Shown piece after piece: positions 26,857 to 45,068 of a DNA stretch of 64,000 nt. Numbering within the stretch: position 1 is the stretch's first letter; each line of letters begins with the position of its first letter. The DNA comes from Paraflavitalea sp. CAU 1676 (GTDB lineage: Bacteria; Bacteroidota; Bacteroidia; Chitinophagales; Chitinophagaceae), in contig NZ_JARHUJ010000003.1 of NCBI RefSeq assembly GCF_029223285.1, positions 62,001 through 126,000 of the forward strand, read 5' to 3'. The notes beneath the pieces were generated by a model. The model was not told the origin of the DNA. It did no database searches and worked only from the letters and a program-made list of their open reading frames with translations. Position numbers and translations under genes: made by a program.

Positions 26857-26857
26857 T

Positions 26858-27118: not shown

Positions 27119-27120
27119 CT

Positions 27121-27519
27121 ATGAGTACTGAAAACGAAATTATCGGCACAGGCTGGGCTTTTCCCCCGCATTTTGACCCGGAGCAAAATACGACGGCCAT
27201 GACATCGGGCGTGGAAGACATCAACCAAAGTTTGTACATACTATTTACGACCGAGCTGGGTGAGCGGGTGATGCAACCCAATTACGGGAGTGCCATGAAG
27301 TCGATGATCTTCGAAAGCATCAATGAACATTTCAAGTCGTACATGCGGATGGTGCTGGTAAGAAGTATCGCTTTGTATGAAGCCAGGATAAGGCCCCTGA
27401 ACATCGATTTCATTGCCGACGAAACGCTCGAAGGCAGGTACCTGATGCAGCTCGACTACATTATCGTATCGACCAGGCAGCGCAACAATTTCTTATTTCC
27501 ATTTTACCTAAACGCGTAA
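27121..27519 (+). CDS. Baseplate wedge protein, gp25 family (Afp9-like)
   Basis: This 132-aa protein has the gp25-like lysozyme-fold signature: FDPEQNTTAMTSGVEDINQS, then LYILFTTELGERVMQPNYGS, a hallmark of GPW_gp25 proteins. The C-terminus (LNIDFIADETLEGRYLMQLDYII) forms the beta layer that contacts the sheath. It links the baseplate wedge to the first sheath ring. The start is two bases past the PAAR stop, and a GTG start follows four bases after its own stop. Confidence 0.92.
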   Translation: MSTENEIIGTGWAFPPHFDPEQNTTAMTSGVEDINQSLYILFTTELGERVMQPNYGSAMKSMIFESINEHFKSYMRMVLVRSIALYEARIRPLNIDFIADETLEGRYLMQLDYIIVSTRQRNNFLFPFYLNA

Positions 27520-27523: not shown

Positions 27524-30500
27524 GTGGGCAAATTAATCTCAAATATCTCCAATTACCCGCTTTCGGAAGGAGCGGTGGCCTATAGCAATAAGTTGGTGCT
27601 GGAGGATGGTTATTCCATCCGCACCGATTCACTGAAGGATTACTTCAAGATCATCTTCGAGTTATCGAAAGATGTACTGTTCTTTAATGATACGGGTGGT
27701 GCGTCGCATACCTGGAACGACCTGCTGAAGAAAGATGCCATCTTCCAGTTATCGAGGTTTGTAACGCTTTCGGTGGCCGAGCTGCATGAATACTTCCGAA
27801 ACCTGCCGCAGATCAACGGTTTCAACAACGACAACACGATCTCTGTTACTGAATATAAGAAGCTGGCCTGGCAACGCTTTTCGGTACTGCAATACCTGTT
27901 CTGGTATTACAAGACCATCAGCGATTCGATGAGCGGCGAAAACCAGCCGCAGGTATTATCTATCCTGAAAGGAGATACGGTGAGCAACCTGTTCATGCGT
28001 TACGAGTCGCTGTTGCAGGAGTGTCTGGTGGGCCCGCCGATCCTGATCGGCGCCGGTGAAAAGGTAGCTACGCCAGCCTTTAACGGCCTGGTATTTCCGC
28101 CGGTGGAGGCCGATCTCACGGCTTCGTTGCATGCCTATTACAATCCGGCCAACCTGCCGGTAGACCCGGTGCTCAATATCTATCTTACCGACGAAGACAA
28201 GATCAAAGCTGCCAATGAATATGCCTATACTTTCTTCCGGGCGTTGATGCAGGTGCAGCAGTTATTCAACACCTGGGCTTCCGGTAAGCTGCAGGAACTG
28301 ACTACTACGAACAATGACCACGAACCGCATATTGGTTTACTAATCGCCTTTTGCAAACTGGTGATGCTGTATGATGCGCGGTACAATCAGCTGATCCATC
28401 AGCATACCGCCTTTGTGTTCAGCGATATTCTGCGCCTGCAGAAGCAACGCGTGTTGCCGGATACGGCCTATGTGAGCCTGGAACTGGCCAAGAACGTAAA
28501 CCAGTATTTCCTGGGCAGGAACTCCCTTTTCAAAGCGGGCAAGAACAGCGCGGGTAAACCGGTGTATTATCAGTCGACCAGGGATATGGTGCTTAACAGC
28601 GCGAAGATCGCCGCCATCAAATCGAGCGTGCGGGTGTGGAAGCAAAATGAGTTGTTTACCGTAACCGGGGCAGACGATGCGGCCAATGCCGAATGGCAGG
28701 CCAACAATGCGTGGCTGGCCTTCAACGATATCAGCGACTCGTATACCGGCATGGGCATCGAGGCTAAGATGCTGGTGAGTATGCAGAAAAAAGATACGGT
28801 GATCGATTTTGAGTTTGAGTTTGGCGTGGATGTGCCGGCCAGCTCGAAGATCCTGGAAAATACCAAGGTTGCCTTATTGCTTACAGACGGTACGGAAGCC
28901 AGCCTGGTAGTGACAAATGCGGTGACCGAGCTTCACTGGCTGAAGATCAGTACAAAGATCGAAAAGGACCTGAAGGTGGCCGTTAAGACGGGGGTGAATG
29001 CCAGGATCAAACTGGCATCGCCGGTCCGGGAAAGCGAGGATACGGACGATTACCTGCAACTGTATCGTTTTCTACTAAAGCAGCAATTGCTAAAGATCAA
29101 AGTGAAGGCCTACCAGCAAACGTTTACGCCCACCCAGGTGCGTACCACCTTTGGTATGATAGATGGGGCCGCCAGCTTTGTAGCGTTTGGGGCGAACTCT
29201 CAATCGGGCGCCTCGTTCAGGGTTTACCATCCCTATCTTCAATACACGGACAAGCTGGATATTACCTTCCATTGGGCCGAGGGGCTGAAGGAGGCCGTAC
29301 CGATGAGCATCAACGGTACCGATGTGACGACCGTTGCCGGTCAGGATAGCAGTCTGATATCCGCCTTCGACAATGACGGGGCATCTACCCTGATCGTAAG
29401 GCTTGAGAATGACCATCTCTACAATGCTACCTCTACGCTGAAGCGCGGCAATACCACGACGACCGTACTGACTCCTTTGCCACGTATACTGCTGGTAAAG
29501 TCCATCGATATGAAGGGCGACCTGGAAGAGCTGGTGTATGAAAAGGAAACGCAGCGGGCCGTCATCTTTATCGATGAATTACTGAACCGTAGGCGATTCA
29601 TTACCTCGCTGTATGTGCCGTATGCGAACAAGCGCCGGCAGAAGGTAGCGTTGCGGGAAAGGTACTTACAGTTAAGGTTCAGGTTTTGGGATGAATACCG
29701 GAACAACCTCACCGTTCACCTGTATCCATTCGGAGAGCGCAAGGTGAACAAGCCGAGCGGCCTCACGTTGCTGCCCGACTATTCGGTATTGGGTTTCAAT
29801 AATTATGAGGGCGACCTATACATAGGACTCACCAATATTACGCCGGGGCAGAGTATCAGTCTGCTGTTTGACATAGCCGAAGAAACGGCCGAGCAATCGG
29901 AACAGGAAGCTAAGATCAGTTGGCATTTCGTGACCGAAGAGAAGATCGAAGCACTTGATCCCTCTCGCGTGACCGATACGACCAATCATTTCCTGCAGCC
30001 GGGCATTGTGCAGCTGACCTTGCCGGTGACTGCGACGCCCGACAACCAGCTTCTATATGGCGCCAATACCTACTGGCTGGTGGCCCGCTGCGATCATCAT
30101 CCGGAAGTGGTGGCCAACATCAGGAGCATTAAAACGAATGGGGTGGCTGTAGAACGGGTTTTGGATGCCAATAACCAGGAAGCCCGGAAATCGGTGGCGC
30201 CGGCTACGATCGAAAACCTGTTTCCCAAGACGGCGAATGTGAAAGTGGTGACGCAGGATACGCCTTCGCTCAATGGCCGCGAAACGGAAACCGACCTGCA
30301 TTTTTTCTGGCGCAGCAGTATGCGGCTGCGGCATAAACACCGTGGCATAACCCAATGGGATATCGAGCAATTGATACTGGAGCAGTTTCCCAATATCTAT
30401 AAAGTAAAATGCCTGAACCATGCTTTGTATGATGATGCGAGCATCAGCATTATTGCCCGGCCCTGGCACTGTCTCATCACGCTCATCCCTTATTACCTGG

Positions 30501-30949
30501 TGAATGCCCAGCAGCCCAATTTTCAACCGGCGATCACGCTATCGAAACTCCTGGCGGTGAAAAGCTGGCTGGAAAGCAAATGCTCCGCTTTTCTCTCGTT
30601 TCAAGTGTTGAATGCCCGGTGGGATGTGGTGTCTGTGGAACTGGAAGTGGAGGCGAACGAGGATATCCTTGACCTCTTGTATTACCGCGACCAGCTGAAC
30701 CGTGATATCATGCGTTTCTTTTCGCCCTGGGCTTTCGAAGCGAGCGGCGCACCGGCGTTGTCTCAGAAGATCTATGCGGCCACGCTGGTGGACTTTATCG
30801 ATGAACTGCCCTACGTGCACCATATCAAAAGTCTGAAGCTGCTGAAGAATAACCTGGAGGTGCATGATGCCATCGATGCTTCTACCGCTATTCATTTTAT
30901 CACCTCTGCGCCTGAACACACTATAACGGTTCACCCTTATGGAAGTTAA
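27524..30949 (+). CDS. Large baseplate protein with J-like region (Afp11-like)
   Basis: This 1141-aa protein starts with GTG. Its C-terminal part (from about residue 920) carries the baseplate-J features seen in eCIS: RLRHKHRGITQWDIEQLIL, FPNIYKVKCLNH, and a closing ferredoxin-like part with VSVELEVEANEDILDLLY. The long middle contains IDELLNRRRFITSLYVPY and several beta-rich modules of unknown fold. It should form part of the wedge. Its last 11 bases overlap the start of the next gene. Assignment to Afp11 is based on order and the J-like C-terminus. Confidence 0.82.
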   Translation: MGKLISNISNYPLSEGAVAYSNKLVLEDGYSIRTDSLKDYFKIIFELSKDVLFFNDTGGASHTWNDLLKKDAIFQLSRFVTLSVAELHEYFRNLPQINGFNNDNTISVTEYKKLAWQRFSVLQYLFWYYKTISDSMSGENQPQVLSILKGDTVSNLFMRYESLLQECLVGPPILIGAGEKVATPAFNGLVFPPVEADLTASLHAYYNPANLPVDPVLNIYLTDEDKIKAANEYAYTFFRALMQVQQLFNTWASGKLQELTTTNNDHEPHIGLLIAFCKLVMLYDARYNQLIHQHTAFVFSDILRLQKQRVLPDTAYVSLELAKNVNQYFLGRNSLFKAGKNSAGKPVYYQSTRDMVLNSAKIAAIKSSVRVWKQNELFTVTGADDAANAEWQANNAWLAFNDISDSYTGMGIEAKMLVSMQKKDTVIDFEFEFGVDVPASSKILENTKVALLLTDGTEASLVVTNAVTELHWLKISTKIEKDLKVAVKTGVNARIKLASPVRESEDTDDYLQLYRFLLKQQLLKIKVKAYQQTFTPTQVRTTFGMIDGAASFVAFGANSQSGASFRVYHPYLQYTDKLDITFHWAEGLKEAVPMSINGTDVTTVAGQDSSLISAFDNDGASTLIVRLENDHLYNATSTLKRGNTTTTVLTPLPRILLVKSIDMKGDLEELVYEKETQRAVIFIDELLNRRRFITSLYVPYANKRRQKVALRERYLQLRFRFWDEYRNNLTVHLYPFGERKVNKPSGLTLLPDYSVLGFNNYEGDLYIGLTNITPGQSISLLFDIAEETAEQSEQEAKISWHFVTEEKIEALDPSRVTDTTNHFLQPGIVQLTLPVTATPDNQLLYGANTYWLVARCDHHPEVVANIRSIKTNGVAVERVLDANNQEARKSVAPATIENLFPKTANVKVVTQDTPSLNGRETETDLHFFWRSSMRLRHKHRGITQWDIEQLILEQFPNIYKVKCLNHALYDDASISIIARPWHCLITLIPYYLVNAQQPNFQPAITLSKLLAVKSWLESKCSAFLSFQVLNARWDVVSVELEVEANEDILDLLYYRDQLNRDIMRFFSPWAFEASGAPALSQKIYAATLVDFIDELPYVHHIKSLKLLKNNLEVHDAIDASTAIHFITSAPEHTITVHPYGS

Positions 30950-33764
30950 CAACGAACATATCGACGAAAAGGCATTGCCTGCGCTGGTAGAGAACTTTTC
31001 GCTGCTGCGCGACCGGGCGATGGCTTATATACAACAAACCACCACGGGTAAATGGACAGACCACAATATCCATGATCCGGGCATTACCATCCTGGAGGCG
31101 CTTTGTTATGCGCTAGCCGATGTGGGCTTCCGGATGAATTTCCCGGTGCAGGACCTCCTGACGGATGACCTCGGCAATCTACCAAAGAAAGCATTCTATT
31201 ATCCACAAGAGATATTGCCCTGCCACCCGGTTACGATCAATGATTTCCGGAAGATACTGATCGACCTGCCCCTGATCAAGAACGCCTGGATCACACCTGT
31301 TACCGACCCCAACACCAGCATTGTGCTCGATTATGAACCGATGTATGTGTATGAAAAAGGAGGGAGGCTTGTGCTGAAGAAAGATGTCACGTCTCCGCCC
31401 ATCCCGGTAGCGGATCATGCGGCCATATTGAACAGCGACCCGGTATTCATCATCGGGCTCTATGCAGTGCATATTGAATTTGAAGTACAACCTTTACTCG
31501 GCAATATCGATAGCGGCGAAGCCTTTGAAGGGGTGTATGAACCCAAGTACTTCGGCGATATCTTCTACGATATCAGCAACTGGAATGTGCTGATCAACGA
31601 TAAGCGGATGCTGCAGAAGATCGCCAAGGCCTATACAGTGAACCCCGCCAATGTAACGCTGGACTTTGAACCTTCGCCCAAGAACAAATACAACAACAAC
31701 GACGGCAAGCTGGATGAGCGGGTATTGACGGAATGGTATTTCAATGTAGTGGTATTGTGCAGCGGTGTGCCCACGTTCACCTTCAAAGACGTATCGTTTG
31801 TGCCCTATTTCGAGGGCGGGAAGGGCATTTCGGGAAAGGACCTGAAGGACCTGCTCAAGAAGAACAATTTCGCCTTCTGGGGCAACTGTTTCAAAAAAAT
31901 ACTGGCACTGGCCAAGGCCTACACCGATATTCAAACGGTATTGCACCAAAACCGCAACCTGGCCGAGGATTACCTGCCGCAGTTATCGGCTATACCTACC
32001 ATCGACTTCCAGATCTGTGCAGATATCGATGTAGACAGCAAAGTTGACATCGAGCAGGTTCAGGCCACTATCTTTCACAAGCTCATTGAATACATATCAC
32101 CCACCATTCCTTTCTATACATTCCAGGAGTTGACGGCCAGGGGCCTTCCCATCGAAGAGATACTGGAGGGACCCAAGCTATCGCATGGCTTTATATTGGA
32201 AAGCGAGATGGGGGAAAATTCTTTCCAGGATTTCACCATCAACCTGTCGGACATCATCAATACCATTTACGAAACGGAAGGGTTGATCAATGTGCGGAAT
32301 GTGACCCTGCTGCTGCGGGACGACAATGGCAATACGATCACCAATACCAACAAATGGGAGATCAAGGTGCCGGCGGGCTTTAAGCCGGTGTTGAACAAGC
32401 GTAAAAGCAAACTTACCTTCTATAAGAACGATCTGCCGCTGCTAGCCCACTTCAAGGAAAGCATCATCAAGCTGAACCTGCTGCAAACCAACAGCGTCAA
32501 GTTCCGGAACAGCGACGTACCCATGCCGGTCTTCAATCCGGTGTACCGCGACCTGGCCCTGCATTATGCCCTGGCAGATGAATTCCCGGCCACGTACAAA
32601 GTCGGCAAGAACCTACCCGACAATTACCTGAACAAACCGGAACTGTACAAATCGAAACAACTGGAAGGCTACCTGTTGTTGTTTGAGCAACTGATCGCCA
32701 ATTTCCTGAAGGATCTGCACCAATTGAAAGAAAGTCTGTCGTGGGAGACGGTGCAGCACCTCCAATTCAAAAGCGCCGGCAACAACTGGCGGCGGAGTTA
32801 TTTACTGGGCGGCAGTGGCGACAGCCGCTGGCAGGACATCATTGAGCCCAATAGCACCTTCCTGAAGAAACGCAATGCCAGCCTGGACTACCTGCTGTCG
32901 CGCTTTGCAGAGAACCTGCAGGAGATCGATAGTTTCTTCTATCTCTCTACCGACAACCTGGCGATCACAGAAGCCGATTACTATCAATACCTGATCGACC
33001 TGAAGCAGCAGTTCCTCGCCAACTATATCGCCATTAGTGCAAACCGGGGGGCGGCGATCAACCTGCTGGCAGGGGCAGACTATTTAAAGACGCCGCTATC
33101 GGGCTATGAGCACCGCCTGAGCCGTTTGCTGGGATGCCAGCTGCTTAAAAACGATGGCAGCCGCCGGATCGCTACGGACGTCGTCGACAACGACAAAAAG
33201 GAACGCGGCCACTTTCATGTGCTGGAGCATATCCTGCTGAGGATACCGACGCTGAGCCCCGAGTTCCTGACCTATGTACAGGCCAATGGGATTACGCTCA
33301 ATACAGAGTTACTGGGCATTTGTACAGATGATGATTGTACGGCCTGTGACGGTCACGATCCTTATTCCTTTACGGCTTCGATCGTATTGCCTTCGTGGGT
33401 ACCGGTGTACCAGGACGTACACTACCGCGATTTCATTGAAAAGCTGATCAGAAAAGAAACGCCGGTAGGTGTGCTGCTGCGCGTATGCTGGATCGATAAA
33501 GGCTCGATGCTCTATTATGAGCAGGTACTGGGCGAATGGTGGACGGCGAAATATGAGCTGTTCTTCGCCGATGCCGATAATTATTTCGCGCGCCTGGTGA
33601 CGTATCTCGACAAACATACCACCCTGGTGCAGGCGATGAAATCGCACCGCAGCGATTACTTCCCGGCAACGCTGCATGGCTGCGAAGACGAGGGTGAAGA
33701 GAACAATACCCGGGTATTCCTCGACAAGACTTATTTAGGAACTCCAAAAAATAATAATCTATGA
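30939..33764 (+). CDS. Baseplate wedge protein (Afp12-like / gp6-like N-domain)
   Basis: This 941-aa protein begins with the module KWTDHNIHDPGITILEALCY (residues about 36-55), found in the N-termini of eCIS baseplate J and wedge proteins. Later regions mix alpha and beta structure. A Cys-containing stretch near residue 795 reads GICTDDDCTACDGHD, which could bind a metal. It overlaps the preceding gene by 11 bases and the next by four (ATGA), so expression is coupled. Its position suits the second wedge component. Exact equivalence to Afp11 or Afp12 is uncertain. Confidence 0.78.
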   Translation: MEVNNEHIDEKALPALVENFSLLRDRAMAYIQQTTTGKWTDHNIHDPGITILEALCYALADVGFRMNFPVQDLLTDDLGNLPKKAFYYPQEILPCHPVTINDFRKILIDLPLIKNAWITPVTDPNTSIVLDYEPMYVYEKGGRLVLKKDVTSPPIPVADHAAILNSDPVFIIGLYAVHIEFEVQPLLGNIDSGEAFEGVYEPKYFGDIFYDISNWNVLINDKRMLQKIAKAYTVNPANVTLDFEPSPKNKYNNNDGKLDERVLTEWYFNVVVLCSGVPTFTFKDVSFVPYFEGGKGISGKDLKDLLKKNNFAFWGNCFKKILALAKAYTDIQTVLHQNRNLAEDYLPQLSAIPTIDFQICADIDVDSKVDIEQVQATIFHKLIEYISPTIPFYTFQELTARGLPIEEILEGPKLSHGFILESEMGENSFQDFTINLSDIINTIYETEGLINVRNVTLLLRDDNGNTITNTNKWEIKVPAGFKPVLNKRKSKLTFYKNDLPLLAHFKESIIKLNLLQTNSVKFRNSDVPMPVFNPVYRDLALHYALADEFPATYKVGKNLPDNYLNKPELYKSKQLEGYLLLFEQLIANFLKDLHQLKESLSWETVQHLQFKSAGNNWRRSYLLGGSGDSRWQDIIEPNSTFLKKRNASLDYLLSRFAENLQEIDSFFYLSTDNLAITEADYYQYLIDLKQQFLANYIAISANRGAAINLLAGADYLKTPLSGYEHRLSRLLGCQLLKNDGSRRIATDVVDNDKKERGHFHVLEHILLRIPTLSPEFLTYVQANGITLNTELLGICTDDDCTACDGHDPYSFTASIVLPSWVPVYQDVHYRDFIEKLIRKETPVGVLLRVCWIDKGSMLYYEQVLGEWWTAKYELFFADADNYFARLVTYLDKHTTLVQAMKSHRSDYFPATLHGCEDEGEENNTRVFLDKTYLGTPKNNNL

Positions 33765-36700
33765 TCAATATATTTCCGGAATTCGAATCGAGGCAGGTGC
33801 TTACCGCCGACGAGCTGAACTGGATGGCCTGCTATCTGGATGCACAGGAGCGCCAGTCGCGCCGGTTTTTGATCGGGTGCGGACTGATTGGCGGACTGCA
33901 GGTGAAACTGGTGAATAACTCGGTACAGGTGACGCACGGTATTGGCGTAACGAGTGCCGGCCATATCGTTTCTCAAACGGGTGGCAGCAGTGGCATTACC
34001 ACCTACACCAAACAAAAGGCTTATACGCAACAGGCCAATGAAAAGCTGGCCTATCATTATCTGCCGGATCTGGATCCTTTGGCGGAGAATTATACCGGAT
34101 CGGTGGATCAGCCTTCGTTGTATTTCCCCGGCTTTGCAGGACCCATCCTGGAGTTGTTTGAAGACACCGTGAATGATGCTACGCCTATCGATGGCGCCAG
34201 TATCAATGGCAAGGTGGCGTTGTTGTTTGCCGAGATCATACAAAAAGAGCTGAAGGACTGTGAGGGAGACAATTGCCAGGAGCGCGGCAAGAAATACCTG
34301 TTCAAAACAAAGGTTTTGGTGATCAGCAAGGAAGATGCGCTGCTGCTGTTGAGCAAGGAGTACAACAATGTGGTACAATCGGAGGATGCGCTGAGCAAGC
34401 TGGCCTATCCCTGGCTGCACCTGCCCAATATCAATATCCTGAAGCCGGTATTCTCGAACAAATCGGTGAACGCCGCTTTCAGCGAGAAAGTGCTGGTTGA
34501 CGAGTATGGCCGCTGCATCAAAGATTTCCGTGATGTGCTGAGCAATAACAAAGCGGCCATTGAGCAATCGCTCACCAATCTGCGGAACTACTGCACGGTG
34601 ACGCCAGCCAACATAACGCTGGTCGACACGCTGGTGGCGAAAATCAATAGCTCGAATGTGTTGAGCGCTAATAACCAGTCGCCGGCACTATCGGGCGTGG
34701 TGTATGATTACCTGTGGTGCTTTGTAAAGGCTTATCAGGAACTACAGACCGAAGCGCAGCAACTGAAAGCGAAATGCTTTACCAATGAGGGTGCTTTTCC
34801 CAACCACATCCTGCTGGGGTTGATCTCCGCTACCAATAGCGATTTCGATGCCCCGGTGTACACCGGTTATTCGGTGTACCGGCATTACTTCCAATCGAGG
34901 CTGATGCAAACGCAGCAGGCGGAGCTGGCGAAGAAGGTGATCGTTTGCATCAAGCGGCTCGTGACGCTGGTAACGGCCTTCGACGATGCCGCCCTGCCCA
35001 ATAAGAAGGATATCCGCATTACAACGGGTGGCAACCTATACGATCCGCTATCGGAGCAGGCGATGCCCTATTACCTGAAGCAGGCGACGGCGCCCTTTTG
35101 GAATGTGCAGTCGGCCCATTTCAACCTGAACAAGTACAATACTTTCTACGGCAGTACCGATGACAACCAGACGCCGTCGACCAACCTGGCGTATAATACA
35201 TTGCCCTATGCCATGCAAGGCAACCATGGTTTCTTCCGCATCGAGGGGGTGTATGGTCAGCCGGCGGTGAATGCGTTGAACTCGGTATTCCAGTTGCGCA
35301 AGAAGCATGGTATGGCTTTCGAAGTATTGATGTTGCGACTGAATGAGAAAGCGCCCTTCAGTCATTCTTTCAACTTCACCATCAACGAAGACGTGGAAAG
35401 TATGTACCAGGTGGTGCGTGCGGAAGTGCTGAAGCAGATCAGCCTTAACATCAACTACCTGTGGGGCCTGCAACTGAAGGCTGGCAAGTTTACGGGCATC
35501 CGCAACATCCTGGAAGACGAGCTGGAGAAGAGTTACCTGTTCTTTTTAAACAATATCAATATCCTGCTCAAGGCCAAGCCGCTGGAGATGGTGCTCAACG
35601 AGGCCATCATGGCGAGCAATATCACCACTAACTATAAAGCCAAGGCCTATACCACCGAAGCGAAGTACATGGAGCTGGAAACGTTGTCGGCGGAGGCCAA
35701 ACCGGTTACCCAAACGCTGGCCAAGCAGGAGAGTGTGGGCATTTCTTACCTTAAATACAGCCCGGCTTATGTAAGTATACTGCAACCGACCTTTACGATC
35801 GGGGTTTTGTTCTTCAATACCCTGGGCAACCTGGTGGATACGATCAAGCGCAGCGATAAGTTCAAGAATACGTCGGACATCAGCTTTTACAGTCACCTGT
35901 TGAAGATCGTGAAGGGCATGCAAAAGAATGAAAAGGAAAAGCTGTTGTTCCTGTATGCATTGCAATTGTATTGTGCCCTTAAGTTGCAGGAGGCCTATCT
36001 GGCCGAGAATTTCCTGGAGCTGGACATTGTGAAGTACCGCGACAACCTGGAAGACGAGTTGTTACCTGCCGCCGACCAGGTCATGGATTACCTGCGGCCC
36101 TTCTCGTTCTACTTTACAAATATCACCAACGACGAGCTGCTGTACCAGGTGAACCGGGATGAGATAATGGAGCATGCGGGCCGGGTTAAGTATGACGATG
36201 ACTGGATCAAGATCATTCAACTGGATGCCGAGAATAAGAAACGCAATGGCGGACTGGGCGTAGAGAACTTGTTGGAGAAGTTCGTGAAGCTGCATCCGGG
36301 CATCGCTCATGGCTGTGGTGTTCCGAAAGGAGGGACTTACCTGATGATCTACGACGCTGCCAACCAGGTGGTGGCCGACTTCTATTTGCCTTATATCATT
36401 GCTTCGCATTTGAGACCGATACAGTTTACGCTGTTGGAGAACAAGACCATTACCCTGAGCGGTACGGTGAAGGATGCAGCCGGCACGATACTACCGGGTG
36501 TGACCGTACTGGTGGGCAATGCCACGGTCATCACCGACAAGGATGGTTTTTATACGGCGCTGGTTTCGGAGAACAGTACGGTGAAGATCATTTGTAAGAA
36601 GGCCGGGTACGAAGACTTTTCGAAGGACGTGAAGGTCACGGATCAACCGATCGAAGAGAACATCGTGTTGAAACCTGTACCGGTTGCGAAGTTCAAGACG

Positions 36701-37633
36701 ACCGTTCAGTTCCGCAATCAAAAGCAGCAGGGGGTAACGAAGACCTTTACACTGCTCGATAAGCAAACCAATAAGCCGGTTACGGTGGAGAAGGGGGTTA
36801 TGGTATTGACCGAGGAGCCCAAGAAGACGTTCAAGTATGTGGTGCAGGATGCCAGCTTTGACGATACCGAGTTCGAGATCACCACGATCGACAAGGATCA
36901 AACGATCCCCGTGCCACTGATCGAGCTGGACTTCTTCCGGATCCAACTGGTGGGTCAGCCCGGCAAATATGTTCCTTCGTTATTGAACAGTATAAATGTG
37001 ATCGCTCCGGACATGGAGCTCGATAAAAGTAAACTGGCAGAAGGTTTCTTCATTACCAAGAAACGGGAAGACATCACCCTGCAGGCGAAGGTAACGGTGG
37101 TCTATAACCAGAAAACGGCGACACAGGAGATATCGGCCGGTCCGGATGAGAACAAGGTCATTGTAGACACCACAACCCCCGAAACCGAGAAGCGGTTGAG
37201 CCTGGTAGTGGGTATCCTTTATCCGCAGGACGGGAATTTCGTCAGGCTGAAGAATGTAACCGTGAATGGTACGTCGGTGCCGATGCAGCTGCAGAGTGAT
37301 ATCGGCAAGAACGATATCAAGACGAAGGGTGAGTTTGACATCTCCAAGGAGTTCCCGCAGGTGAAGCCAATCGCCATCGACAGTTTCAAGGAAGTGAATG
37401 CGGCTTCGCTGCTGATCGACTTTGTGTTTACCACCTCTCGTGAAAAGGTGACAGACGATATGGTCTTCTCCTTTACGAAAACGATCACGCCGGCGCAGAA
37501 GACCAGCTTGATCGGCAACTTCCCGCGGCTGCGGCCCATTGCGGCCGTGCTACAGGAAGGCGTGACGACCTTCTATTGCATGGTGATCAACAAAAAGGAT
37601 TTTGATGTAGTAGCTAAAATATTAGGGCTTTGA
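33761..37633 (+). CDS. Large eCIS protein with carboxypeptidase-regulatory-like domain
   Basis: This 1290-aa protein has an N-terminal region starting FESRQVLTADELNWMACYLD, a long helical middle (about 250-880), and a carboxypeptidase-regulatory-like beta-sandwich at about 895-975 (LSGTVKDAAGTILPGVTVLV). Several further beta domains follow to the C-terminus. The Ig-like module is often involved in surface binding or structural support. It could be a baseplate accessory or shell component, or take the place of a tail fibre, since no Afp13-like gene exists here. Start and stop overlap both neighbours by four bases. The specific role is unknown. Confidence 0.75.
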   Translation: MINIFPEFESRQVLTADELNWMACYLDAQERQSRRFLIGCGLIGGLQVKLVNNSVQVTHGIGVTSAGHIVSQTGGSSGITTYTKQKAYTQQANEKLAYHYLPDLDPLAENYTGSVDQPSLYFPGFAGPILELFEDTVNDATPIDGASINGKVALLFAEIIQKELKDCEGDNCQERGKKYLFKTKVLVISKEDALLLLSKEYNNVVQSEDALSKLAYPWLHLPNINILKPVFSNKSVNAAFSEKVLVDEYGRCIKDFRDVLSNNKAAIEQSLTNLRNYCTVTPANITLVDTLVAKINSSNVLSANNQSPALSGVVYDYLWCFVKAYQELQTEAQQLKAKCFTNEGAFPNHILLGLISATNSDFDAPVYTGYSVYRHYFQSRLMQTQQAELAKKVIVCIKRLVTLVTAFDDAALPNKKDIRITTGGNLYDPLSEQAMPYYLKQATAPFWNVQSAHFNLNKYNTFYGSTDDNQTPSTNLAYNTLPYAMQGNHGFFRIEGVYGQPAVNALNSVFQLRKKHGMAFEVLMLRLNEKAPFSHSFNFTINEDVESMYQVVRAEVLKQISLNINYLWGLQLKAGKFTGIRNILEDELEKSYLFFLNNINILLKAKPLEMVLNEAIMASNITTNYKAKAYTTEAKYMELETLSAEAKPVTQTLAKQESVGISYLKYSPAYVSILQPTFTIGVLFFNTLGNLVDTIKRSDKFKNTSDISFYSHLLKIVKGMQKNEKEKLLFLYALQLYCALKLQEAYLAENFLELDIVKYRDNLEDELLPAADQVMDYLRPFSFYFTNITNDELLYQVNRDEIMEHAGRVKYDDDWIKIIQLDAENKKRNGGLGVENLLEKFVKLHPGIAHGCGVPKGGTYLMIYDAANQVVADFYLPYIIASHLRPIQFTLLENKTITLSGTVKDAAGTILPGVTVLVGNATVITDKDGFYTALVSENSTVKIICKKAGYEDFSKDVKVTDQPIEENIVLKPVPVAKFKTTVQFRNQKQQGVTKTFTLLDKQTNKPVTVEKGVMVLTEEPKKTFKYVVQDASFDDTEFEITTIDKDQTIPVPLIELDFFRIQLVGQPGKYVPSLLNSINVIAPDMELDKSKLAEGFFITKKREDITLQAKVTVVYNQKTATQEISAGPDENKVIVDTTTPETEKRLSLVVGILYPQDGNFVRLKNVTVNGTSVPMQLQSDIGKNDIKTKGEFDISKEFPQVKPIAIDSFKEVNAASLLIDFVFTTSREKVTDDMVFSFTKTITPAQKTSLIGNFPRLRPIAAVLQEGVTTFYCMVINKKDFDVVAKILGL

Positions 37634-38988
37634 GTGATCCTGTGATACATAAGGTGAGTGTGGTGTTGCCGGCGACGGACTACCAGGAGGCGGGCAGGCA
37701 CCAGAGCGCTGCCAAACACTGGGCCCGGCATAGTTTGCCGGGGTTGCTGAACCGGCATCTGGAGAGCCTGGCCAAGGGTGAGGAAGTCGTGTACATCGAA
37801 AAGGTGACGATCGAATTACCTGACTTGCCCTGGAACCTGAGTGAGGGAGACTGGCAGCGGCTGCTGGCGGAGGCGATACAGGTAAGTGCGGCTTCGCCGG
37901 ATAGTAAGGCCTTGATCGTACAGCAATGGGTATTTTACCTGGAGCATGGCTGTATGGAGAAGCATGCATTGCTGGCCAGCCGGCAGGCCATGGAGGTATA
38001 CGTGGCAGCGCATTTTGAGGAGTTGGGGCCTTTGCTGCTGCAGACCTTACGTAGTGGGGGTACTTTTTCCATGTGGCAGCGATTGTTTGGCCAGCATGGA
38101 GAGGCGTTGGTAGTGTTGGTGCTGGAGGCCTTGCTGGCGATCGATCGTGCGCGGGCGGTGCGGGTATATGCGGTGTTGCGGCGGATGATCGAAGCAGATG
38201 CGGTGGCCGCAGCGCGGGTGCTGTTGAAGCTGGTGGTGACGAACCGGGCTGTGACGGCGAGCAGGAAGGAACAGTTGCTGGAGCAGTTGTTGCGGGGAGG
38301 GGGAGATGAGGCGCGGCTGGTTGAACCGGATACGGATGGGGTGAGCGAGGAGTTGATTGAAGATGCGAAGAAGCCGTCCTTTCCGGATACTTATCTATCA
38401 TGCGCCCATGCAGGATTGGTACTATTGTTCCCTTATATAAAAAGCTTTTTTGAACACTGTGGTTTTGTGAAGGAGGATGCTTTTGTGAGTGAAGCGGCGC
38501 AGTGGATGGCGGTGCAGGCTTTGTACTTTTTGGCGACGGGGAAGGCTGAGGGCGCACGGGGGGTGGGCGGCGAAGAAGCGGCTGAGGCTACGAGTGATGT
38601 GGTCGGCAGTGTGAGCGGTGGTGAGGAAGCGAGTGATGCGGCCGACGGTGTGCCAGAGGAAGAATTGGTATTACCGAAATTATTGTGTGGCGTTGAGTTG
38701 TCGGACTATGTGGAATGGAAGGGCGCCTTGCCAGCTTTTGTGCAGCGGGAAGCGAATGCCTTGCTGGAGGCGGTGATCGACCATTGGAAGGTGTTGCAGC
38801 ATACCTCTGTTGACGGGTTCCGGGAAACCTTCCTGCGGCGAACAGGTCAGCTGGTGCGGCAAGGAGACAACTACACTTTGCAAGTAGAAGAATCGGGCGT
38901 AGATATTTTACTCAATAGTATACCCTGGGGATTCAGGAATTACCGTTTGCCATGGATGCCCGGCACCCTGGTTACGGAATGGTCTTAA
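37630..38988 (+). CDS. Contractile injection system tape-measure protein
   Basis: This 452-aa protein resembles the eCIS tape-measure family (Afp14 position). It opens VIHKVSVVLPATDYQEAG, then VYIEKVTIELPDLPWNL, and ends with a beta-rich GVDILLNSIPWGFRNYRLPW. This conserved start and end frame a variable helical middle, whose length is thought to set particle length. The start is TTG at 37630 overlapping the preceding stop by four bases; a nearby GTG is an alternative. The middle has an acidic, Gly/Ala-rich linker (about 310-345). It lies before the cargo gene. Confidence 0.85.
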   Translation: MSDPVIHKVSVVLPATDYQEAGRHQSAAKHWARHSLPGLLNRHLESLAKGEEVVYIEKVTIELPDLPWNLSEGDWQRLLAEAIQVSAASPDSKALIVQQWVFYLEHGCMEKHALLASRQAMEVYVAAHFEELGPLLLQTLRSGGTFSMWQRLFGQHGEALVVLVLEALLAIDRARAVRVYAVLRRMIEADAVAAARVLLKLVVTNRAVTASRKEQLLEQLLRGGGDEARLVEPDTDGVSEELIEDAKKPSFPDTYLSCAHAGLVLLFPYIKSFFEHCGFVKEDAFVSEAAQWMAVQALYFLATGKAEGARGVGGEEAAEATSDVVGSVSGGEEASDAADGVPEEELVLPKLLCGVELSDYVEWKGALPAFVQREANALLEAVIDHWKVLQHTSVDGFRETFLRRTGQLVRQGDNYTLQVEESGVDILLNSIPWGFRNYRLPWMPGTLVTEWS

Positions 38989-38991: not shown

Positions 38992-41900
38992 ATGAAAACG
39001 TCTGCCACCATATCGGCCAAGGCGAAGGCTAAGCGGCCTTTTATGCAAAAGGCCCAACGTGAACCTTTCATCAAAAGGAATGGCGCGTCGGCTACTGGCA
39101 ACGGCACAAAGCGCGTCAATAAAGAGGAAGACAAGGCCGGTGATTTTGCCCGGCAGGCAACGGGGAATGCTGCTATCGTGCAGGCCTTTCAACAGGCAAG
39201 CGGGTCACTGAAGCGGCCGGCTCTTAAGACATCCCAGGCCCCGACCGCCAAACAGGCCGTTAAGCCACCGGAGGTGGGAGGGCTCGATGGGTTTCCGCTA
39301 CCGGCTACGCTGGTCGCTGCCTTTAAACTTCACCTGGGAGAAGACTTCGCGGAAGTAAGGCTCTATGCCGATCCGCTGAGCACCAGGATCGCCAAAGAAC
39401 ACAACGCTGCCGCCCTTACGGTGGGTGAGCAGATCTTCTTCAACACAGATGTCTTTAAACCTGGTACGCCGGAGGGTTTATCCCTGCTGGCGCATGAGCT
39501 ATTTCATACCATCGAACCCGGCGAGCAACCTGACCACGTTGAGGTGCAACTGAAGCCGCTCACGGAACCTACCGACCGCACGCCTTACCAGCAAATGGCT
39601 TTGGAAAGGGCCGCGAAGATAGCGGTAGGAGAACAGGGTAAAGTGAACTCCAATGCCTTGAATGAAGACCAGACGCGTGTGGGCTGGCAGTTCCTGGTAG
39701 AATACTTCCGTACGACGTTTGGCGACGATAATATTGTCAAGGATAAATCGGAGCATAAACCGGGCAAGTTCCTGGAAGACTATATCAAGTTCGTACGCAG
39801 GGGTGCAGCCACAAAGGTGTTTGTGAATAAGGCCGGCAAACACGAAACGCGGGTTGAACAAAATGTTGACCTGCTGCCCAGCTGGTGCGGCATTTTTGCG
39901 TTCTGGGCCCTGCACAAAAGTGGCATCCATCCGCCGCCCTGGCAGGTGGGCAAGCCCAATTTCACCAGTGCAGATGCTTATAAGAAAGGGGACTACCTGC
40001 CACGCCCCGGCGATATCGTGATCAAGAACGGTTATAACCACCATGCATTAGTAGTGCGTACCGATCCGGCTAAGATAACCGACAGCAAGGACCTGGCCAC
40101 GGTAAAGGTGATCACCATCAATGGTAATACGGCGGGCAGCAATCATACCGGCGGACAGATACAGGTTAAAACAGATCCTTATAGTTATTGGGATTATTAT
40201 ATCAACCCCTTCTTCAAAGGCGTAGAGCTTACGCCCGAGAAAGACTTTCAATTGGACGACCGGCTGAAGGAACAAGCGGGAGGAGGAGGCGGTACAGCTG
40301 CACCTGCGGTTACCATCGCTCCGGCCAATACGACCATCAATACCTACAATACATCGCTGGAGCCGGTAGGGCTGAATATCCCTAAAAAGGAAGGTGAAGA
40401 GCCTGTGAAGCCCGATGCGGAGAAGGTGGAGGAGAGTCCGCTGAGCCCCAAGGAGATCATGGCCAAAGATGTGGCGTATGGAGAGTTGCAGGGTTCGCTG
40501 AACCGCAATGCGAAGCACGAACAAACGCATGACCCGGCTGAGCAGAAGGCTGGTGAAGCTCAAAGCAGTGCCGTATCGCCGGTAAACGAGCGGTTGAGTA
40601 AAGCGAAGGCCATCAAGGTAGAGGACCTCGGTGCTATGCCAAGGCCTGCGCCTTTCAAAGCGCAGGAGCTGAAGGACAATATACTGGCGGCGGTGAAAGA
40701 GATGTTGAAAAAGCGGGCCGAGAAGACGCCGGAGGGCGATAAGCCCACCGTCATCAAAGAGGACCTCGATGGGGTCAAGGTACAGAACAAGGAAGATATC
40801 AAGAGCAAGAAGAACGCATCGGCGGGTGCTATCGAGTCGGCCCAGAAACTGCCGCCGAATGAGCAGGCCGTTGAACAGCGCGAGAGCAGTGAGGTAGTGG
40901 TGGAAAACCCGGGGCCGGATAAGCATATCCCCAATACGGAGAAAGCCGTTGCGAAGCCGATCGTCGATGAGCGGATCACGCTGGAGGAAGACTCGGGCAA
41001 GATCGATTCGAAGATGGCAGAGAATGATGTGGACGAGCAGCAACTGGAAGAATCGAATGAAGAGAAGTTCACCGGGGCGCTGGGAGAGAAAAGAGGTAGC
41101 CAGGCAAAGGCGGCTGCCGTCAAGACGGATTACCGTGCTATTGAAGACGAGAAACTCGAGAAAGATAAGAAGAATGCCAAGGCAGGCATCAACAGTAAGG
41201 TACAGCTGATGCACGACATCAGGGAGGGGGAGTTTGGCAACGTGGGTACGGTGAAAAATGCCACCAAGAGTGCGGATGAATTGAAACGAAAAGAGATATC
41301 CGACAAGATCGAGAAGCTGTATACGGATGCGGAGTTGTCGGTGAATGCGAAGCTGGAAGCGCTGGACAAAACTGTCAATGAGGAGTTTGATCTTGTGATG
41401 GCCCGGGCCAACGAGCACTTTAAAACGAGCGTCAACCATGCGCTCGATGAGGAGTTTACCTGGGAATGGGCTTCCAAGACATTCGACAGCGGCGATTACA
41501 ACCGGCGGGTGCAGAAGGTATTCCGCGAAGAGTCGACCAAGTATGAGAATGAGTTGTCGGAGGCGCTTAATCCGCTCACGACGAAGATTGCCAATACGCT
41601 CAATGCCATCGTAGATGAAATAGAAGCGGCGAAGAAAGCGGTGGTGGTGTTTGTGAATGGACTCGAACCGGCGTTGAAAGACCTGGGTATGGAGAGTGCG
41701 AAGCAGGTGATGGAGAAATTCAATACGCTACAGCAGAGTGTGAATGAGAAGCAGGAGGCGTTGACGAATGGCCTGGCGAAGAAATATGCCGATGGGGTGA
41801 TGGCGTTGGAAGAAGAGTTCAAGAAGATCATGGATTCGCGCAAGAGCTGGCTGGAGAAAGCGCTGGATGCGATTGTGGATGCCATTAAGGAGATCATCAA

Positions 41901-43821
41901 CCTCCTGATCGACCTTAAAAAGGCGCTGGAGCGGGCGGCGGAGTATGGCAAACGGATCATCAAGGCGCCGCTTAAGTTCTTTGGCAACCTGTGCAAGGGC
42001 GCCTCAGAAGGCTTTAACAATTTCGTGAAGAATATCGGCAAGCATTTGCTGCAGGGCGCGCTGGAATGGATCACCGGTGAGATGGGGGATGCGGGTATTG
42101 TGCTGCCGGATAAGTTCGATTTTAAAGGCATCCTCAGTATCATTTTACAGATACTCGGTATTTCGATCCAGAACATCAAGGAGATCGCCAAGAAAGTGAT
42201 CGGGGAGAAGTATGTGACGATGCTGGAGAAGGGGGCGGACCTGGGTGTGAAGGCGGGCGATAAGATACTGCAAATTTTCACGATCGTGAAGAAAGATGGT
42301 ATTGCAGGTTTGTGGGAATTCATCAAAGAGCAGTTCAACGACCTGAAGGAAAAGCTGATGGAAGAAGCGAAGGGGTTCATTATTGCTACGATCATCGAGG
42401 CGGCTGTGATCAAGGTGGTGTCGATGCTGATACCGGGTGCGGGGTTTATTACGGCCGTGAAGGCGTTGATCGACTTTTTGCGTACGCTGTTTGCCAAGGC
42501 AAGGCAGATCGTCAATATCATTACGGGCATCATCGATACGTTTGGCGAGATACTGGCCGGCAATGTAGGTAAGGTGGCGGGTATGGTAGAGAATGTGCTG
42601 GCAAAGTTCCTGGGACTGGCCATTACCTTCCTGGCGGCGATATTGGGGCTGGGCAAGATCGGGAAGAAGATCAATGAGATCATTCAAAAGAAGATCAAGG
42701 ACCCCATCAATAAGGCCATTACGAAGATGATGGAGAAGCTGAAACAGTTGATGACGAAGCTGGGCATCTTTAAATTCCTCGACAAGGTAGACGACAAGAT
42801 CAAGAGTGGTAAGAAATGGGTGGAGGATAAGAAGCAGCAGGTAAAACAGAAAGCTACTGATGTATTGAATAAAGTAAAGGGGTTTTTGGGCGGCTTGTTC
42901 AATAAATACACGGATGAAAGCGGCGAAACCCATACGCTGCGGTTCAAGGGCACCGATCTATACCGGGAGAGCGTTAGTAAGGCCCTGGGTAATTACCTGC
43001 TGGAAGTGAAGGGGGAGATAGAAGGCATCAGCAATGCAGATGAAAAAAAGAAACACCTGAGCTCGGTTACCAAAGCTTTTACATTACACAAGAAGATCGT
43101 TGACCTGATTGGCGAAACCGTCAAGAAGAGCGGTGGAAAATATCAGGGGGCGGATAAAGGGTTTAGTCCGGCCGAAGGCGAATTGCTGCGTGGCTACCTC
43201 AAGGATATTGCCGAGCTACTACGTATGCTGCCATTGAAGAACAAGAAGAAATTCATTCCAAAAACAAAGATCGCTTACCGTGATGGTGTTGCGGATGGAG
43301 AGCATGCCAAAGCCACGTTCCTTTCGCTTGATTCGGATGAGGCGGGCAGCCAGCCAGCGGGTGCCAATTCGCCCTTGTCGCAAAATGTAATCGACATTGT
43401 ACTTACCAAACGATCGAATCATAACCTGGTACGCGGGCACCTGATCAACCACGAGTTGTACGGTACGGGCGTTGGCACGAAAAACCTGGCACCGATACCC
43501 AAGCGGGCGAATTCGAAGATGTTGAATACCTTTGAAAAGGATACCAAGAACCTGGTGCATGCCAATAATATCGTAGAGCTGGAAGTAACCATGCATTATG
43601 GGGCTCCCAACGACAAAATGAAGAGCGGAAAATCGCTTTTGAAGGATAAGTTACCGTCGGGCGCCAAGTTACCTACGAGCGTTGGGTTTACGGTGAACCA
43701 GCTGGAATTTAGTGGTCCGGTCAATTCGAAAGATGCGGTGGTGAACGACCGGACGAAATGGAAACCGAATGGATTGTCACGAACCGCCGACCTGCCCATC
43801 AACCATGATGACTTCTTTTAA
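38992..43821 (+). CDS. Multidomain eCIS cargo candidate: DUF4157 - CHAP - helical - nuclease-like
   Basis: This 1609-aa protein is the likely effector. Residues about 95-185 are a DUF4157 (eCIS core) domain with a HELFH zinc-type motif at 168-172. A CHAP-like domain follows: Cys299 in SWCGIFAFW, His350/351 in NGYNHHALVV, and Asn near 378. Residues about 425-740 are a charged Glu/Lys/Pro linker, about 735-1000 a coiled-coil region, and about 1125-1225 hydrophobic helices that may insert into membranes. The C-terminus has RGHLINHELYGTG (from 1481) and NLAPI (from 1498), resembling the H-N motif of DNA/RNA non-specific endonucleases. It sits between tape measure and ATPase. Activity is inferred, not shown. 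Confidence 0.85.
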   Translation: MKTSATISAKAKAKRPFMQKAQREPFIKRNGASATGNGTKRVNKEEDKAGDFARQATGNAAIVQAFQQASGSLKRPALKTSQAPTAKQAVKPPEVGGLDGFPLPATLVAAFKLHLGEDFAEVRLYADPLSTRIAKEHNAAALTVGEQIFFNTDVFKPGTPEGLSLLAHELFHTIEPGEQPDHVEVQLKPLTEPTDRTPYQQMALERAAKIAVGEQGKVNSNALNEDQTRVGWQFLVEYFRTTFGDDNIVKDKSEHKPGKFLEDYIKFVRRGAATKVFVNKAGKHETRVEQNVDLLPSWCGIFAFWALHKSGIHPPPWQVGKPNFTSADAYKKGDYLPRPGDIVIKNGYNHHALVVRTDPAKITDSKDLATVKVITINGNTAGSNHTGGQIQVKTDPYSYWDYYINPFFKGVELTPEKDFQLDDRLKEQAGGGGGTAAPAVTIAPANTTINTYNTSLEPVGLNIPKKEGEEPVKPDAEKVEESPLSPKEIMAKDVAYGELQGSLNRNAKHEQTHDPAEQKAGEAQSSAVSPVNERLSKAKAIKVEDLGAMPRPAPFKAQELKDNILAAVKEMLKKRAEKTPEGDKPTVIKEDLDGVKVQNKEDIKSKKNASAGAIESAQKLPPNEQAVEQRESSEVVVENPGPDKHIPNTEKAVAKPIVDERITLEEDSGKIDSKMAENDVDEQQLEESNEEKFTGALGEKRGSQAKAAAVKTDYRAIEDEKLEKDKKNAKAGINSKVQLMHDIREGEFGNVGTVKNATKSADELKRKEISDKIEKLYTDAELSVNAKLEALDKTVNEEFDLVMARANEHFKTSVNHALDEEFTWEWASKTFDSGDYNRRVQKVFREESTKYENELSEALNPLTTKIANTLNAIVDEIEAAKKAVVVFVNGLEPALKDLGMESAKQVMEKFNTLQQSVNEKQEALTNGLAKKYADGVMALEEEFKKIMDSRKSWLEKALDAIVDAIKEIINLLIDLKKALERAAEYGKRIIKAPLKFFGNLCKGASEGFNNFVKNIGKHLLQGALEWITGEMGDAGIVLPDKFDFKGILSIILQILGISIQNIKEIAKKVIGEKYVTMLEKGADLGVKAGDKILQIFTIVKKDGIAGLWEFIKEQFNDLKEKLMEEAKGFIIATIIEAAVIKVVSMLIPGAGFITAVKALIDFLRTLFAKARQIVNIITGIIDTFGEILAGNVGKVAGMVENVLAKFLGLAITFLAAILGLGKIGKKINEIIQKKIKDPINKAITKMMEKLKQLMTKLGIFKFLDKVDDKIKSGKKWVEDKKQQVKQKATDVLNKVKGFLGGLFNKYTDESGETHTLRFKGTDLYRESVSKALGNYLLEVKGEIEGISNADEKKKHLSSVTKAFTLHKKIVDLIGETVKKSGGKYQGADKGFSPAEGELLRGYLKDIAELLRMLPLKNKKKFIPKTKIAYRDGVADGEHAKATFLSLDSDEAGSQPAGANSPLSQNVIDIVLTKRSNHNLVRGHLINHELYGTGVGTKNLAPIPKRANSKMLNTFEKDTKNLVHANNIVELEVTMHYGAPNDKMKSGKSLLKDKLPSGAKLPTSVGFTVNQLEFSGPVNSKDAVVNDRTKWKPNGLSRTADLPINHDDFF

Positions 43822-43826: not shown

Positions 43827-45068
43827 ATGAGCGTTCAAAACAACTTTGAAGCATTCCACGAGAAAATGCAGGCTACCTTCCCGGCCATGTATGCCGAAGC
43901 CAATGAGATGGAAGCCATGGGCATTTCTCTATGCCTTGTGCCTATCCTGCACTCGGACCTGTTGGATAATTTCATCAAACAGGAGTTTGGCGCCGAGGGA
44001 GATTTTCCGTTAGCCGGAGGCATACGGGGTAACCAGCACCGGGGCATCATGCCTACCGGTGAAACCTGGATGTATTGCTGCTGTGGCAACGACACCGCAA
44101 AGCGTGTTGAATTCATTCAAACCATTCCCGTCTATTTATCACTACCTAATTCGTTGCTCAATATCGAGGCGGCTTTGCCGGGGGAGCCTTTCTTATCGGG
44201 GCGGCTGGTATTCAGTAGTTATTTCAGGAAGCAGTTTCAGGATCATTCGCTGGTCTATGAGCAACGTTTCAGCAACCTGAACCTGGGCGGCTTTATGAAC
44301 ACCCAGCTTACATTGGATGATCTTGTTTTGACAGAGCCGGTGAAGCGCTGTATCGATGAGATCAAACACTGGCAGTATTTCCAGGAACATAACACCGGGT
44401 CGGTTGCTTTCACGAAGCGACTGAAGCAGGGATTGAAGGTGATCTTTTTTGGCAAGAGCGGTACTGGTAAAACGCAAACGGCGACCATCATGGCCCAGCA
44501 GTTGGGGAAACCGATCTACCGGATCGATCTGTCGCAAATCGTTTCCAAGTATATCGGAGAAACGGAGAAGAACTTATCGAAGATATTTGAAGCAGCGGAA
44601 CATAAGAACTGGGTGTTGTTCTTTGATGAAGGCGATGCGTTGTTTGGGAAGCGCACTTCCGTCAACTCATCGAACGACCGGTATGCCAACCAGGAGGTGG
44701 CCTATCTGTTGCAGCGCATTGAAGACTATCCCGGCATTATCATTCTATCTACGAATCTGAAGGAGAATATTGACCCGGCTTTTCTACGGCGATTTCAGAT
44801 CATTGCGGAGTTTCCCATGCCCGATCAGGTGCAGCGCCATGCGATCTGGGAAAAGCTGCTGGCAGAGTTGCCGGAGGGGATGGTGCAGATGAATGAACTG
44901 GACTGGAGCGAGATCACGAAAACAGAGTTAAGCGGCGGTGGCATTACGAACATCATTCAGTATGCCCTGTTGAAGTCGACCTACCAACAGGTACCGATCG
45001 GACTTCCCATGCTCAAGGAGGGGATCATTCGCGAGTTGCGGAAGGAGAATAGATTGACAAGTTTGTGA
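43827..45068 (+). CDS. AAA+ ATPase of the eCIS (Afp15-like)
   Basis: This 413-aa protein has an N-terminal domain (about 1-170) typical of Afp15-like proteins and a single AAA+ module. Walker A is GKSGTGKT (209-216), Walker B is VLFFDEGD (263-270), sensor-1 Asn is at 310 (STN), and arginine-finger candidates are R321-R322. It ends with a small helical lid. Its counterpart in Afp/PVC clusters is required for assembly or cargo handling, though not part of the mature particle. It is the last gene of the operon, five bases after the cargo gene. Confidence 0.93.
   Translation: MSVQNNFEAFHEKMQATFPAMYAEANEMEAMGISLCLVPILHSDLLDNFIKQEFGAEGDFPLAGGIRGNQHRGIMPTGETWMYCCCGNDTAKRVEFIQTIPVYLSLPNSLLNIEAALPGEPFLSGRLVFSSYFRKQFQDHSLVYEQRFSNLNLGGFMNTQLTLDDLVLTEPVKRCIDEIKHWQYFQEHNTGSVAFTKRLKQGLKVIFFGKSGTGKTQTATIMAQQLGKPIYRIDLSQIVSKYIGETEKNLSKIFEAAEHKNWVLFFDEGDALFGKRTSVNSSNDRYANQEVAYLLQRIEDYPGIIILSTNLKENIDPAFLRRFQIIAEFPMPDQVQRHAIWEKLLAELPEGMVQMNELDWSEITKTELSGGGITNIIQYALLKSTYQQVPIGLPMLKEGIIRELRKENRLTSL

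Follow-up and report, generated by a model that had tools for sequence, protein, structure and literature searches.

Most cargos of contractile injection systems (CIS) are uncharacterised, and the role of the DUF4157 domain and the targets of most systems are open questions. The plan of DUF4157, long linker and toxin is known already: the extracellular CIS (eCIS) proteins of Geller 2021 (PMC8213781) carry an N-terminal DUF4157 domain, a linker which can exceed 1000 amino acids (aa) and a C-terminal toxin, and the same plan with membrane helices and an EndA-like nuclease is that of Tme (BN159_7576), a 2247-aa CIS effector of Streptomyces davawensis (PMC11126660). Cgo1 and Cgo2 of AlgoCIS are DUF4157 proteins that fill the tube lumen and differ in their C-termini (PMC8894135), and Sle2 is a DUF4157 protein which interacts with a core component of the Streptomyces lividans CIS (PMC13277306). 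Here, we analyzed a 64,000-nucleotide stretch (the window) of Paraflavitalea sp. CAU 1676 (contig NZ_JARHUJ010000003.1, positions 62,001 to 126,000), in which an intact open reading frame (ORF) of 1609 aa lies inside a CIS operon and encodes a candidate cargo with a DUF4157 domain, a predicted cysteine-hydrolase module, a conserved central module and a nuclease-like C-terminal tip.

Candidate cargo gene and domain plan

The gene is translated without a stop codon, starts 3 bp past the gene of the CIS tape-measure protein (CIS_TMP) and ends 5 bp ahead of an AAA ATPase gene; with the sheath, tube and baseplate genes upstream, it lies inside the CIS operon. It is a real gene, because three full-length orthologs align over residues 1-1609, with identities of 74, 65 and 66%. 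Its reading as a CIS cargo is strengthened by this operon position and by the published DUF4157 cargos. The parts of the gene are as follows.

38992..43821, + strand: candidate CIS cargo, whole gene, 1609 aa (intact ORF; three orthologs at 65-74%)
39295..39519, + strand: eCIS_core / DUF4157 domain, residues 102-176, HELFH at 168-172 (PF13699, E 1.1e-18)
39577..40221, + strand: NlpC/P60-CHAP-like cysteine hydrolase module, residues about 196-410, with C299, H350 and N377
40222..41841, + strand: charged linker and the region after it, residues 411-950 (composition only)
41842..42786, + strand: central conserved module, residues 951-1265 (alignment of 37 rows; BLAST matches)
42367..42480, + strand: hydrophobic segment 1, residues 1126-1163 (Kyte-Doolittle peak 2.35)
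42583..42666, + strand: hydrophobic segment 2, residues 1198-1225 (Kyte-Doolittle peak 2.28)
42913..42939, + strand: junction motif, residues 1308-1316, at the boundary of central module and tip (post hoc pattern)
43249..43818, + strand: EndA/NucA-like nuclease tip, residues about 1420-1609, with H1483, N1498, N1507 and E1515

A preliminary description of this DNA had named HELFH in a DUF4157 domain, Cys299, His350 and H1483, and a hydrophobic part at about 1125-1225, and all of these are borne out by the translation. HELFH lies in an eCIS_core match above the Pfam cut-off (67.6 bits vs 22), the single such match at E 0.001 in the genome (8.8 Mb, 23 contigs), and the hydrophobic part resolves into the two segments listed, in which the 19-residue Kyte-Doolittle mean is 1.6 or more. 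HELFH, C299, H350, H1483, N1498, N1507 and E1515 are identical in the cargo and its three orthologs (4/4 sequences). By analogy with Cgo1, whose growth inhibition was reported to be independent of HExxH (as cited in PMC11297309), this motif may be irrelevant to the cargo. A PDB search with the whole 1609-aa protein gave no match.

Predicted hydrolase module, central module and predicted nuclease tip

The CHAP and nuclease parts are sub-threshold when the single sequence is compared with Pfam, and therefore family and fold evidence is needed for both. First, CHAP (PF05257) matches the whole protein with E 0.0098 (16.8 bits) and the cut piece with E 0.00068 (20.5 bits) against a cut-off of 26, and TIGR02594 reaches 18.4 bits, below its cut-off of 70.55. 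The predicted structure has the papain-like fold of the NlpC/P60-CHAP superfamily, and wall hydrolases lead its fold matches. A CHAP match at E 0.01 or better is found in 13 of 29 members of the module, and the catalytic C299 and H350 are kept in 28 of the 29 aligned rows; Cys and His are also kept in all nine loci from the whole-protein search (L032-L035, L041-L045). At L089:9977-10939, none of the presumed triad residues Cys, His and Asn is kept, and this copy is perhaps naturally inactive. Partial CHAP-like matches also occur N-terminal of eCIS_core, the reverse of the cargo's order, at G175:C9:460194-460829, G469:C61:64946-65578 and G488:C5:25623-26270, where both parts apparently share one frame, as judged from equal frame length.

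Second, Endonuclea_NS_2 (PF13930) matches the cut piece only (E 0.0003, 21.4 bits vs cut-off 27) and is absent from the whole-protein Pfam listing at E 0.1, and it is above the cut-off in related stretches of L038, L040, L049, L068, L069 and L071. The predicted fold and the His-Asn-Glu active site are those of the EndA/NucA beta-beta-alpha-metal superfamily, and the motif of the catalytic His is VRGH (VRGHLINHEL...KNLAP), with V in place of the D of DRGH. Thus the CHAP-like and nuclease-like parts proposed earlier are supported by conserved residues and by both predicted folds, less strongly for CHAP, and fall short at the level of Pfam.

The central module (951-1265) is the best conserved part across the three orthologs. 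It is common to large DUF4157 proteins in which CHAP is present or absent (BLAST; 37-row alignment), including proteins of Methylobacter, Methylovulum and Cellulomonas, and looks like a shared delivery carrier, to which DUF4157 proteins of several phyla join different tips. As in polymorphic toxins, a conserved carrier is combined with varied C-terminal tips; for example, other carriers end in Ntox15 (above cut-off, L047) or HNH (below cut-off, L045 and L074). The junction motif D..G..H.L, picked post hoc from an alignment already viewed, occurs in 28 of 62 DUF4157 proteins against 2.0 expected by shuffling, a sample from which 12 loci that were partial or duplicated had been removed, along with proteins that had fewer than 80 residues remaining. 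Over the four hundreds from 901 to 1300, the cargo is 86, 92, 88 and 79% identical to the ortholog of the same genus (G214), and over the hundreds from 1301 to 1600 identity falls to 28, 42 and 28%. The ortholog of another genus (G227) keeps 77, 83, 86 and 81% over 901-1300 and 76, 77 and 60% over 1301-1600. The nearer relative has the more distant tip, and the cargo thus resembles toxins with exchanged tips, the nuclease fold being the same here. Some very long proteins carry a pair of DUF4157 domains (L038:5757-13700, L082:9503-18190, L127:6239-16633); L038 has two nuclease-like stretches besides, and these long chains look as if two cargos were fused.

The plan and the position of the gene recur in relatives. 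The named family loci were the best 80 of a core+CHAP scan of a genome collection with patterns containing PSWCGIF or LLAHEL[TF]HT, and as a result of this pattern-based choice and of the cap at 80 the family counts are lower bounds and the conservation of Cys and HExxH is partly due to selection. At least 28 of the 78 named loci (L065-L092) have both core and CHAP-like part in one ORF; with the nine loci of the whole-protein search there are at least 37, of which 35 are distinct (L034 = L066, L042 = L075). CIS_TMP is the nearest labelled upstream gene, among the matches listed, in all 37, with a gap to the cargo of 100 bp or less in 30 and a larger one in seven, three of which hold an ORF of about 250 aa (L035:14003-14755, L045:12290-13042, L081:2431-3189). 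An AAA gene was seen in 29 of the 37 loci and a second DUF4157 gene after the cargo in 21, the latter being absent from the cargo locus and its three orthologs. A tip matching the nuclease profile is present in the same ORF at 25 of 37 loci (23/35 distinct); Pfam adds nuclease tips in L068, L069 and L071, the sub-threshold HNH matches being those named above, the tip of L084 is on the next ORF past a run of N, L065 and L067 end at contig edges, and with the nuclease profile and Pfam no known tip was found in L041, L043, L081 and L085. The named hosts belong, by record titles and taxonomy, to Bacteroidota, Myxococcota, Chlorobiota, Verrucomicrobiota, Thermodesulfobacteriota and Pseudomonadota; many are metagenome-assembled genomes, in which binning may mislead, but the hosts include the named strains Pseudomonas jinjuensis and P. 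schmalbachii.

Of 244 Chitinophagaceae genomes, ten have the CHAP-like module at full length (E < 1e-70), the open frames being 1598-1971 aa long, and 16 have a match at E 0.001, those beyond the ten being weak. Among 395 Bacteroidota genomes, full-length modules occur in two (the cargo's own genome counted) and any match at E 0.001 in five, compared with eCIS_core in 81, which makes the module a minority variant. When 63 tape-measure proteins, 35 of them with CHAP, were placed on a tree, the CHAP label required nine changes against a shuffled mean of 21.0 (0/500 as low); this tree was made quickly and is weak, since 26 of its 60 inner branches are open and many branches are long. The label is therefore clustered and does not form a single clade, and the module was rejected as a mark of one CIS clade. 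Both the length and the combination of parts had been called unusual beforehand. Neither description is supported, because the ten full-length matches sit in frames of similar or greater length, the core+CHAP-like plan is present in at least 35 other distinct loci, and DUF4157 with membrane helices and an EndA-like nuclease is Tme (PMC11126660).

Proposed action, operon context and alternatives

We consider it fairly probable that the protein is a CIS cargo which docks in the particle, cuts the envelope of the target, enters its membrane and degrades nucleic acid with the nuclease tip. The basic N-terminus and eCIS_core probably dock the cargo in the particle, and sheath contraction would expel the chain. 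The papain-like module (C299-H350-N377) would then cleave a bond of the peptide or amide type in the target envelope, most likely in peptidoglycan. The central module, which contains the two hydrophobic segments, would enter the membrane as a phage tape-measure protein does, and the metal-dependent nuclease would degrade DNA and/or RNA. The domain order predicted from the sequence fits such steps of peptidase/amidase, membrane and nuclease. The modular particle toxin of the preliminary description is supported in part, as a probable CIS cargo with a fitting order of domains. For the docking and nuclease steps, experiments on related proteins offer a precedent (Sle2, PMC13277306; lumen cargos, PMC8894135; Tme, PMC11126660), by analogy with which they may apply here; envelope cutting and membrane entry, like loading, the order of the steps and a bacterial target, are what we infer from the modules and their arrangement.

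Several results weigh against this reading. Both the CHAP and the nuclease domain are below the Pfam cut-offs in the 1609-aa protein, the Foldseek matches to CHAP fall short of E 0.001, and a core+CHAP profile compared with the PDB retrieved four chains at E 0.43 or worse with no CHAP among them. A tape-measure kinship of the central module would be weak: PHROG 5493 matches at E 4.1e-5 over 1007-1254 with no single stretch passing, of two relatives scanned for such matches one had weak ones and the other none, and tblastn of the module against 50,697 phage records found nothing. There is also no gene between cargo and ATPase, the three orthologs have no gene in common with the cargo locus past the ATPase in stretches of about 8 kb each, and a profile of the post-cargo ORFs of six relatives has no match in the cargo's genome. 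With no immunity-like gene beside the cargo or in the three nearest orthologs, the locus fits a simple antibacterial toxin poorly.

The adjoining immunity gene of polymorphic toxins is thus absent from the cargo locus. Among the relatives, the next gene was recognisable in 30, and in seven an ORF that is immunity-like by position lies beside the cargo. Six of these positions, right after cargo or tip, hold ORFs of 201-213 aa, and the same position in L041 (12533-13042) holds a pentapeptide-repeat ORF; L073, with a 543-bp gap and charged ORFs, was left out of the count. These ORFs sit where immunity genes would be and are candidates by position. The six were considered as SUKH proteins and not accepted as such: one of them matches SMI1_KNR4 at E 0.024, below the cut-off, and none matched the PDB. 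A SUKH gene of the window was tried as the immunity partner of the cargo and rejected, with an hhalign probability of 0.1 against the six ORFs and no sharing with the three orthologs within 20-kb stretches.

L070:14777-15382: ORF of 201-213 aa right after cargo or tip
L072:6935-7561: the same
L077:14805-15446: the same
L083:14917-15534: the same
L084:8265-8888: the same
L091:14563-15195: the same
50389-50997 (window): SUKH (SMI1_KNR4) gene, E 1.9e-11, 5.3 kb downstream of the operon ATPase

The surrounding operon bears on the target as well, and its genes are as follows.

19851..20435, + strand: Pvc16-like gene (PF14065, E 3.5e-28)
20441-21529: 362-aa operon gene, no Pfam match at E 0.001 and no PDB match at E 0.1
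21554..23377, + strand: contractile sheath (PF17482, E 5.2e-17; one match in the whole genome)
23470..24351, + strand: two gp19-like tube genes (PF06841, E 3.3e-49 and 5e-38)
24524..27519, + strand: CIS_tube, VgrG/hub-like and gp25-like genes (PF19266, PF04717, PF04965)
27524..30949, + strand: Afp11/Pvc11-like baseplate protein (7b5h All3317, E 2.8e-69; 7aeb, 3.1e-64; weaker, Pvc11 1e-23 and Afp11 1.2e-16)
30939..33764, + strand: Cis12/Alg12/Afp12-like baseplate protein (7b5h All3315, E 3.8e-85; Algo12, 9.8e-83; Pvc12, 3.3e-28)
33761..37633, + strand: Cis19 (All3314)-like baseplate crown protein (7b5h All3314, E 3.7e-28)
37630..38988, + strand: CIS tape-measure protein, CIS_TMP (PF19268, E 4.6e-74)
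43827..45068, + strand: AAA ATPase adjoining the cargo (PF00004, E 1.3e-27)

The product of 33761-37633 was considered as a fibre and rejected, as it matches All3314, which is Cis19 (PMC8894136); it also carries a CarboxypepD_reg domain. Downstream of the operon, two 211-aa ORFs (48004-48639 and 49063-49698) are paralog-like by eye and have hydrophobic stretches near the start.

Of the alternatives, the one that survives best has the cargo acting on the producer in or after lysis, as was proposed for S. davawensis, or in ghost cells, in which the Anabaena CIS has been observed, with DNA release and with the hydrolase helping to open the producer's own wall. Effects of Tme on extracellular DNA and on the development of its producer are described (PMC11126660), and the operon encodes the crown homolog of the thylakoid-anchored Anabaena machine, has no tail-fibre gene recognised by Pfam and PDB comparisons (20441-21529 matching nothing), and has no immunity gene adjoining the cargo. 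However, AlgoCIS (Algo12) and the Anabaena CIS are about equally close in the baseplate, and a further match of the crown protein is the PKD protein of 9wt0 (E 2.8e-21), an entry that includes Alg12, so that anchoring cannot be read from this kinship; in addition, immunity-like ORFs lie beside the cargo in seven relatives, and divergence of the tip among close orthologs is more typical of conflict with other cells. We regard action on the producer as unlikely.

A second alternative, to which we give slightly less credence, is that the cysteine module is an internal processing enzyme, which cuts the chain after unfolding or exit from the tube and frees the tip from the docking domain; a target without peptidoglycan would then be possible. 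The lead of wall hydrolases among the module's fold matches tells against a further possibility, equally doubtful, that the cargo is directed at eukaryotic cells (protists, fungi, invertebrates), with a host protein as substrate of the cysteine enzyme and host DNA as that of the nuclease, for which there is the nuclease Pne1 of the metamorphosis-associated contractile structure (MAC), cytotoxic to eukaryotic cells (PMC6748822), and an immunity gene neither needed nor seen at this locus, but no eukaryote-pointing receptor-binding part, which was looked for only when the crown protein was compared with the PDB. A viral source of the gene, or copies of it in viruses, was rejected, since neither the nuclease tip nor the whole protein found relatives in IMG/VR scans, and the tblastn search of phage records with the central module found none either.

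A conserved hydrolase module built into the cargo, next to the same neighbor gene, offers a direct test of what such systems do. Cleavage of peptidoglycan by this module would mean that they aim at bacteria, either the producer or others; cleavage of the cargo itself would show how a toxin tip comes loose. Phages split the tasks of crossing wall and membrane between the tape-measure protein and tail lysins. We propose tentatively that a CIS lineage across several phyla may have united them in one chain with a docking domain, a wall hydrolase, a module for membrane passage and a nuclease. Particles loaded with such a chain would be recognisable as made for delivery into the cytoplasm of walled (bacterial) cells, and the target kingdom of uncharacterised CIS could be read from the cargo.

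Comparison with described systems

Compared with Tme, the cargo shares the N-terminal DUF4157, the long chain, the predicted membrane helices and a C-terminal EndA-like nuclease, in which the catalytic His and metal-binding Asn agree by fold and residues. It differs in three features in the published description (PMC11126660). First, no CHAP-like module is described there for Tme. Second, the gene of Tme is immediately upstream of the baseplate genes, whereas that of the cargo is downstream of them, between CIS_TMP and AAA, so that synteny is not shared. Third, Tme has DRGH where the cargo has VRGH. Tme-like effectors are further characterised by coiled-coil segments and by a remote homology to tape-measure proteins of phages (PMC11126660), for which the cargo shows the weak PHROG 5493 match given above. 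The proteins of Geller 2021 (PMC8213781) share the cargo's plan, and no cysteine-hydrolase module is named in their linkers in the text available. Among 46 predicted effectors annotated as proteases or peptidases, a cysteine-hydrolase fold is likewise not named in the sections at hand (PMC11297309).

AlgoCIS is alike in having DUF4157 proteins, which fill the tube lumen there, and in its close baseplate, and the available description of Cgo1 and Cgo2 contains no CHAP-like domain (PMC8894135). The Anabaena CIS has kindred crown and baseplate and two DUF4157 proteins beside its operon, but it is thylakoid-anchored, and no CHAP-bearing cargo is mentioned in the corresponding text (PMC8894136). 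The EndA and NucA nucleases and the EssD/EsaD toxin (PDB 3owv, 4qh0, 8guo, 8gun) have the fold and His-Asn-Glu active site of the tip, with 12-19% identity to 3owv, 4qh0 and 8gun in structural alignments; however, EndA and NucA are separate nucleases and EssD/EsaD is a protein of the type VII secretion system, and they are not CIS cargo tips. An association of NlpC/P60 with DUF4157 is known from mycobacteria, where RipC is encoded beside a DUF4157 protein, a link called untested by a review (PMC12067865), but there two genes are involved and no CIS. In the open-access literature, supplements apart and as far as the texts were available, we found no description of a cysteine-hydrolase module inside a DUF4157 CIS cargo. 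What appears to be new relative to the published plan is this module in the cargo, beside the same neighbor gene in several bacterial phyla.
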